Source of the DNA: Bacteroidales bacterium
Lineage (GTDB): Bacteria; Bacteroidota; Bacteroidia; Bacteroidales; DTU049
DNA: 36,776 nucleotides
NCBI GenBank assembly: GCA_016937255.1
Contig: JAFGWG010000203.1
Coordinates: 1 to 36,776 of the forward strand
Direction: 5' to 3'
Shown: positions 6,296-28,353 of the stretch, one piece after another
Layout of the letters: every line of letters begins with the position of its first letter
How positions within the stretch are numbered: the first letter of the stretch is position 1
The notes under the pieces: model-generated
What the model saw: the letters and a program-made list of their open reading frames with translations, nothing else
Told to the model about the DNA's origin: nothing
Databases searched by the model: none
Position numbers and translations under genes: made by a program

Positions 6296-6299
6296 TCTT

Positions 6300-6347
6300 A
6301 CAACATCTCAGCGTTGTCAGCCATGGCTGATAACATGAGAGCGTTGT
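6300..6347. repeat. Covarying extragenic hairpin, family C copy 1
   Basis: On the plus strand the two halves are ACAAC-a-TCTCA-gc-GTTGT and ATAAC-a-TGAGA-gc-GTTGT, joined by a palindromic 12-base CAGCCATGGCTG. The outer arms, the middle five bases and the inner arms all pair, with one G-T, while gc stands opposite a on both sides. Read on the minus strand the half-unit is NCAAC-GC-N5-T-GTTRN, as in the other two copies. It starts five bases after the peptidase stop codon, so it may also shape the 3' end of that transcript. Confidence 0.75.
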
Positions 6348-6373
6348 ATTTGCAGTAAGCCAGTGCTGCAATT

Positions 6374-6428
6374 CCAACGCTTTGATGTCGCTATCAATGA
6401 AAGACCTTTCGCGACGCACCAATGTTGG
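6374..6428. repeat. Covarying extragenic hairpin, family C copy 2
   Basis: Halves are CCAAC-gc-TTTGA-t-GTCGC and GCGAC-gc-ACCAA-t-GTTGG with a 19-base loop beginning TATCA. Outer (CCAAC/GTTGG) and inner (GTCGC/GCGAC) arms pair fully; the middle five bases pair at three positions, so this copy is partly decayed. Length (55 bases) and loop length match copy 3. It lies between the secreted peptidase gene and the tatD promoter. Confidence 0.7.
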
Positions 6429-6471
6429 AAGGATTTTACTTCTTAGGCAACACCCTCCAAACATTATTCAT

Positions 6472-22230: not shown

Positions 22231-22280
22231 TCCCGGACATCTCATCGTCCGAAAATAGGAGGTCATGAGTTCGTCCGGGA
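22231..22280. repeat. Family B hairpin, copy 2
   Basis: TCCCGGAC and GTCCGGGA are perfect outer arms; CTCAT and ATGAG pair inside them with a small bulge. The interior shares TC-ATCGT-CCGA and GAGTTCGTC with the copies at 12923-12975 and, inverted, 23655-23699. Confidence 0.65.
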
Positions 22281-23392: not shown

Positions 23393-23396
23393 CTTT

Positions 23397-23535
23397 TCAT
23401 CATTCCGTCGTCCATCGAGCACAATCCTTTTACAAATGCGAAGATGGTCAAGGAATCGTTGAAAAAGTAGTTCAGCCAACGACTCCATGACGACCATATT
23501 TATATTCAATTGTCTGGTCGACGATGGAGTGATGG
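23397..23535. mobile_element. Possible MITE-like segment with imperfect terminal inverted repeats
   Basis: The 16 bases at 23397-23412 and the reverse complement of 23520-23535 agree at 13 positions (core CATCA-TCC-TCGTC). The 139-base segment has no gene. It lies between two family D copies. No flanking target duplication is clear, so a mobile origin is only a possibility. Confidence 0.35.
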
Positions 23536-23564
23536 CTTCATTCATCAAGCTTGTCAGGTTTTGG

Positions 23565-28160: not shown

Positions 28161-28188
28161 GTAGAGACAAGGCATGCCTTGTCTCTAC
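28161..28188. repeat. Perfect 28-base palindrome
   Basis: GTAGAGACAAGGCA and its exact reverse complement TGCCTTGTCTCTAC abut with no spacer. The right half recurs in decayed form at 28311-28325 (GCATGCCTTGTCT), as part of a 42-base direct repeat. Confidence 0.8.
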
Positions 28189-28240
28189 GGGGTGGGTGGA
28201 AAGCTGCGGTGAGAGGGGCTGAAAACCGTTTAAATAACCG

Positions 28241-28295
28241 CCAACGCTCCGATGTCGGGTTATCATTATTATTCTGGCCGACGCTCGGATGTTGG
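28241..28295. repeat. Covarying extragenic hairpin, family C copy 3
   Basis: Halves are CCAAC-gc-TCCGA-t-GTCGG and CCGAC-gc-TCGGA-t-GTTGG, with a 19-base loop containing TATCA. Outer, middle and inner five-base arms all pair perfectly; gc stands opposite t on both sides. Total length and loop length equal copy 2 at 6374-6428, 22 kb away. Confidence 0.8.
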
Positions 28296-28353
28296 CTATT
28301 TTGATAGAAAGCATGCCTTGTCTTTTCAGAGTGGATGGATGGCTGCGGCGAGG

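Follow-up and report, generated by a model that had tools for sequence, protein, structure and literature searches.

Double-bulged, covarying hairpins as probable REP-like sites of a divergent RAYT clade in Bacteroidales

The DNA window analysed here (36,776 nucleotides, contig JAFGWG010000203.1 of the Bacteroidales genome GCA_016937255.1) carries several copies of a hairpin that belongs to a real, covarying and dispersed repeat family. We consider it highly probable that these hairpins are REP-like elements, i.e. multicopy DNA palindromes that are the cognate sites of a RAYT clade in this group of Bacteroidota. Most likely, they are DNA handles recognised and spread by a single-strand DNA transposase. 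On the best reading, the RAYT clade in question is divergent, is missed by Pfam and does without the canonical GT[AG]G foot.

Two models were used to search for copies. The first (R1) was built from nine hand-picked copies in which both halves are readable, and the second (R2) from 41 matches in three genomes (E up to 0.001; sources L124 and L130 left out). In the window, R2 recognises six copies at four places, namely two doublets (6299-6429 and 23396-23536) and two single hairpins (22233-22278 and 28240-28296):

6300-6347, minus strand: hairpin copy 1, left member of the first inverted doublet (R2 50.0 bits, match 6299-6348)
6349-6372, no strand: doublet spacer of 24 nt between the model matches
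6374-6428, plus strand: hairpin copy 2, right member of the first inverted doublet, with partly decayed N5 (TTTGA/ACCAA; R2 53.8 bits, match 6373-6429)
22233-22278, minus strand: single hairpin, a family member missed by the first-pass annotation (R2 25.4 bits, E 9.4e-5)
23396-23463, minus strand: left member of the second inverted doublet, also missed at first (R2 33.3 bits, E 4.6e-7)
23475-23536, plus strand: right-hand hairpin of the second doublet, in its ACGA version (R2 54.4 bits; R2's own building alignment includes it)
28241-28295, plus strand: hairpin copy 3, single, with N5 fully paired (R2 54.3 bits, match 28240-28296)

The first-pass annotation had named three of these hairpins, numbered here as copies 1 to 3. 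All three are real, and their coordinates, lengths (48, 55 and 55 nt), loops, GTTAT arm and N5 pairs, N5 being the variable five-base code, were confirmed; only the count was too low. The strand of copy 1 also had to be corrected: its motif lies on the minus strand, and copies 1 and 2 therefore form an inverted doublet. Near copy 3, the window also contains a perfect 24-nt palindrome (AGAGACAAGGCATGCCTTGTCTCT, 28163-28186), with a partial copy on the other side of this single hairpin (28310-28326).

In its general form, the family hairpin has a 5-bp stem with a 2-versus-1 internal loop at either end, the two loops being mirror-placed, and each half has the core ACG-N-TNNNA-TGT. In the host genome, the exact half-unit was found 17 times, versus once for a reversed control pattern. 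With two mismatches allowed, the result was hardly better than the control (143 vs. 127 matches), and this loose pattern by itself therefore proves nothing. The nine hand-picked copies fold into a hairpin of 19 pairs in which both junctions have a single bulged base; 93.3% of their cells are paired, and they show 25 two-sided changes, with a covariation of 0.389 vs. 0.115 after shuffling (none of 500 shuffles as high). Pairing reaches 92.2% in an alignment of 39 model matches, which includes two wrong-strand rows and some decayed ones. In the 41 matches from three genomes, 93.8% of cells are paired and 126 two-sided changes were counted (shuffled mean 35.4; none of 500 as high), this alignment being model-fitted and hence leaning towards its own structure. 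Further half-units and N5 complementarity above chance thus speak against the coincidence that the first-pass annotation had itself considered, and the strong two-sided covariation of the 9-copy and 41-copy sets bears out its suggestion of selection on a folded molecule.

The two junctions are far less variable than the stems. A junction G faces T in all 41 copies on one side; on the other, T faces G in 36 and the remaining 5 have C-G. The base bulged after the junction G is free, on the 5' side (C 12, A 11, G 18) as on the 3' side (C 12, A 17, T 4, G 8). The second base of the GC named earlier thus does not generalise, GC being one version only. Match length ranges from about 31 to 97 nt, and loop length from 4 to more than 50 nt. 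We had expected the strand with G-T junctions to fold better as DNA, and this was wrong: the other strand is the more stable one in 32 of the 41 copies.

As RNA, the top strand gives a good fold in which both junctions form G-U pairs, as would suit a transcription terminator or a structured RNA that works after transcription. We nevertheless regard this explanation as very improbable. One-sided changes of G-U type are rare (4 cells vs. 126 two-sided changes in the 41 copies, junction pairs left out), many copies form inverted doublets, and no Rfam family matched at the hairpins at gathering score. Moreover, the hairpins lie on either strand relative to the neighbouring ORFs, which, read by eye, are codirectional, convergent or divergent, which argues against a terminator or a strand-bound RNA. 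The protein-binding RNA that had been offered as one possible function is disfavoured on the same grounds. Elsewhere in the host genome, a TPP riboswitch match over the Rfam gathering score lies on contig C184 (L134:4872-4965).

The shape of the halves could also point to a double-stranded binding or recombination site, for instance integron attC-like, and not to a RAYT substrate: each half is near-palindromic and the outer arms resemble CAAC/GTTG boxes. This we hold to be extremely unlikely, as the varied N5 sequences pair between halves and the junction mismatch is conserved, features that are meaningful only in a folded strand, and the copies are scattered over many contigs. An integron attC was itself set aside after a comparison with attC boxes by eye.

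We then considered the abundance of the family, for which a search of the genome and its relatives had been suggested at the outset. R1 gave 39 matches in the host genome (G000) at E up to 1, and R2 gave 60, half of them (30) belonging to R2's building alignment. Among relatives, R2 found 32 copies in G006, 2 in G008 and at least 130 in G004, where 150 of the 1342 candidates were scored, and none in the other 11 of the 15 genomes tried. Hairpins are thus carried by 4 of the 12 genomes of the host family. In an order-wide R2 scan with stricter filters, for which 18 candidates were scored per listed genome, 3 of 295 genomes had matches at E up to 1e-4, i.e. G000 and two genomes of another family (G173 and G265). 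A broad pattern scan returned 8 genome stretches, two of them from an Acetofilamentum MAG and the other six apparently chance or direct repeats when read by eye, as well as 5 viral stretches. Three IMG/VR viral contigs (L143, L144 and L147) have in common a short hairpin-like stretch fitting the pattern (CAACGGTTGAATGTTTGATGTCAAACGGTTCAATGTTG).

The hairpins sit mostly or wholly between genes. Fifteen of the 27 places examined overlap no ORF of at least 70 aa, and the other 12 overlap mechanically called, putative ORFs. These are short (74-149 aa) except at 6299-6429, where the overlap is with the TTG-start extension of a longer ORF at 6382 that has an ATG downstream of the doublet. The host assembly is 96% complete, in 254 contigs, two of which (C110 and C203) end within what seems to be one hairpin copy; the repeats may therefore break the assembly, and copy counts may be low.

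The close pairs of copies share one arrangement among the 150 matches listed of 224, where all 37 pairs with a gap of up to 60 are minus-then-plus. This uniformity carries less weight than it seems to, as 29 of the pairs come from G004, where aligned doublets are near-identical; 7 come from G000. Judged by its sequence arrangement, such a set of two inverted copies with a short spacer is a REPIN/BIME-like doublet. The opposite order, plus-then-minus, occurs between neighbours at RAYT loci.

Some doublets lie within larger repeats. Three copies of a MITE-like unit of about 260-318 bp with TGAGGTGTTCAA ends were found in the host genome (contigs C166, C229 and C104), the C229 copy with an apparent 8-bp target duplication. 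In G004, GAGGCTGTCTCAAAA borders 7 of 11 aligned doublets at both ends with up to 4 mismatches, and an eighth was recognised by eye; hairpin doublets inside units with GAGGCTGTCTCAAAA-like inverted ends were seen in both G004 and G006. These GAGGCTGTCTCAAAA-ended units may account for the high copy number of G004. As many G004 doublets are inside another repeat, a different transposase may be responsible for how numerous and how uniformly arranged they are. It could accordingly be argued that ordinary DDE-type MITEs, with their terminal inverted repeats, carry the hairpins along as passengers, the RAYT link being secondary, the more so as the two host doublets on C166 and C229 occupy the same place inside units of about 290-318 bp with inverted ends. 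We find this unlikely. The third copy of the same unit, on C104, is without the hairpins and has other palindromes there. Furthermore, in a search for these two end types within 130 nt of the host doublets and singles (up to 2 mismatches for TGAGGTGTTCAA, 4 for GAGGCTGTCTCAAAA), TGAGGTGTTCAA was present on both sides in only these 2 of 28 places (C166 and C229) and GAGGCTGTCTCAAAA in none, so that neither of these two terminal repeats is general to the host copies. Neither end was found on both sides at any of the five RAYT loci described below, 20 nt being visible to the left of that on G006:C243.

The association with RAYT genes speaks for REP-like elements. Reading ORFs beside hairpins in relatives revealed a 210-aa protein encoded on G006:C243, with a minus copy on one side and a plus copy on the other. 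When R2 was applied to 39 loci, four genes from these two genomes of the host family proved to be flanked by hairpins on either side, namely those at G006:C243, G006:C144, G004:C9 and G004:C42 (the upstream match of the last is weak, E 0.87). A fifth flanked locus, G173:C75, belongs to another family of the order; its homologue is 50% identical and also has hairpins on both sides. This locus was found because R2 had first singled out G173. G173 has another homologue, outside the clade, which is accompanied by one R2 hairpin on a single side. Palindromes thus flank a Y1 HUH transposase gene at five loci in three related genomes. The first-pass annotation had proposed a substrate for a REP-type single-strand transposase and the search for a RAYT/Y1-type gene in the same genome: the gene with hairpins on both sides exists in relatives, whereas no RAYT flanked by the double-bulge hairpin was found in G000, the homologues whose flanks were read carrying other hairpins or none.

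Several other RAYT homologues in G000 and G004 adjoin other hairpins, as seen by eye. RAYT homologues or RAYT-like genes of G000 lie beside palindromes of their own, e.g. AAACCTGTCAGGTTT (C139), TGTCAGACGACCTT (C64), GACGCACTCAGG (C142) and CGTAGATTGTATCTACG (C85 and C51). The Y1_Tnp genes (PF01797) of G000 and five relatives were also tried as partners, and scanning 20 such loci with R1 gave only two weak matches (E 0.25 and 2.3); those of G000 have other hairpins or none alongside. However, the four genes with flanking hairpins in G004 and G006 are all absent from the Y1_Tnp results, and this apparent refutation arose because the Pfam search passed over the right proteins.

At G006:C144, the downstream neighbour is a copy in which both hairpins and the first codons of the gene are kept and most of the gene is deleted (98% identity over 156 nt and 98% over 59 nt). 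To judge from these sequences, an internal deletion of this kind could be the origin of the doublets that lack a gene. A tandem duplication by recombination explains the G006:C144 case equally well.

The G006:C243 protein has no match in Pfam. All five proteins scanned, four of them from flanked loci, match the NCBIfam model NF047646 (REP_Tyr_transpos) with E from 3.7e-7 to 2.2e-14 (4.9e-11 for the G006:C243 protein); their scores of 30.1-53.6 bits are significant by E-value, and none of the five reaches the curated cut-off of 80 bits. A profile of 23 homologues found E. coli TnpArep (4er8, E 2.6e-6) as its only PDB match up to 0.01. H56, H58 and Y150 are invariant in all 23 aligned sequences, which thus have the HUH motif and the single tyrosine (Y..NP) of RAYTs, in the forms NH[FY]H and YI[NH]xNPVKH. 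Homologues are present in 17 of 59 genomes. In the host family, they occur in the same 4 of 12 genomes as the hairpins, and the other 8 have neither; as related genomes are not independent, no probability is attached to this co-occurrence. G027, G035 and G058 have homologues and no R2 matches, while in G265 (78% complete) hairpins are present and no homologue was found.

In a tree with four flanked RAYTs, these form one group (support 82/83). With G173 added (26 rows), the five flanked RAYTs require two changes, forced by strong branches, and a single clade for all flanked RAYTs was therefore given up. The tree neighbours of G173, from G027 and G058, have hairpins of the same mirror 2/1+1/2 build, with G for T at a junction (by eye). 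Perfectly paired hairpins of this build were sought on either strand of 450-nt flanks. Six were found, next to 5 of the 14 wider-clade genes scanned (a set that includes the C218 pseudogene, absent from the tree), and none next to 13 other genes; in the same two sets, parallel controls gave 0 and 0, the plain 1/1 build 1 and 12, and the 2/2 build 3 and 2. A looser scan of the 14 clade genes yielded 46 mirror, 10 parallel, 19 1/1 and 19 2/2 hairpins, with about 3 expected for mirror from shuffled sequences; a single locus with tandem palindromes (G004:C17) accounts for 12 of the 46. For the 13 other genes, the numbers were 16, 14, 20 and 7, respectively, with about 6 from shuffled sequences. 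This looser scan counts some palindromes twice, once under each reading, and includes some matches that are A/T-rich noise. The mirror build looks general for the wider RAYT clade.

These hairpins resemble the REPs and REPINs (BIMEs) of E. coli, with TnpAREP, in being multicopy, intergenic, imperfect palindromes that occur as inverted doublets and flank a Y1 HUH gene, as far as described in the texts of PMC6006769 and PMC8266576. According to the text of PMC8266576, both unpaired bases within the stem and the GTAG-type foot of canonical REPs matter to E. coli TnpAREP, the former being needed and the latter crucial for its activity. The canonical GT[AG]G tetranucleotide, defined as lying 0-2 nt 5' of the hairpin, is found in 1 of 41 copies on the top strand and in none on the bottom strand, even within 8 nt. 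Since this guide is absent, we place the hairpins in the REP/RAYT kind and not among canonical REPs. Further differences are the two mirror-placed 2/1 internal loops in place of one bulge, the match and loop lengths given above, and a protein too divergent for Pfam Y1_Tnp. In the text of PMC6006769, TnpAY1 subclasses 2.4 and 2.6 are likewise RAYTs of Bacteroidetes, and subclass 2.6 genes are said to have atypical secondary structures on their flanks, copies of which occur elsewhere in the genome; on text and table of that source, however, the motifs NH[FY]H and YI[NH]xNPVKH fit neither table row exactly. Members of IS200/IS605 share the Y1 transposase and hairpins near both ends (in part after the text of PMC6006769). 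In contrast to IS200/IS605 ends, the gene-nearest hairpins are inverted at the host-family loci, and the proteins carry the RAYT-type Y..NP motif. No description of the double-bulge hairpin was found in the open-access texts searched, among them PMC6006769, PMC8266576, PMC3733652 and PMC12306157.

By analogy with E. coli TnpAREP, the enzyme would most likely bind the folded single strand and read its two junctions, each with a mirror-placed bulge of 2 versus 1 nt. Such reading of the junctions would explain why their letters are fixed while the stem letters change in pairs. The RAYT would cleave and mobilise the single-stranded hairpin, one particular strand being used, and a cognate RAYT presumably is, or used to be, active in the organism from which the window comes. 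As a speculation, a dimer would fit the helix with its mirror symmetry. A more far-reaching proposal, which we put forward only tentatively and think doubtful, is that this RAYT clade reads its hairpins through the two mirror-placed bulges, probably as a symmetric dimer and with no guide tetranucleotide, and that the unit of minus hairpin, RAYT and plus hairpin is itself mobile, giving REPIN-like doublets by internal deletion.

According to the text of PMC6006769, RAYT units do not appear to move as wholes, a question on which the deletion derivative at G006:C144 bears. If our reading is true, a RAYT clade with foot-less, double-bulged hairpins would offer a test of substrate choice without a guide, and whether paired bulges replace that guide would become a testable question. 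It would also explain a conserved class of hairpins in Bacteroidota, found beside proteins that the Pfam Y1_Tnp search passed over.
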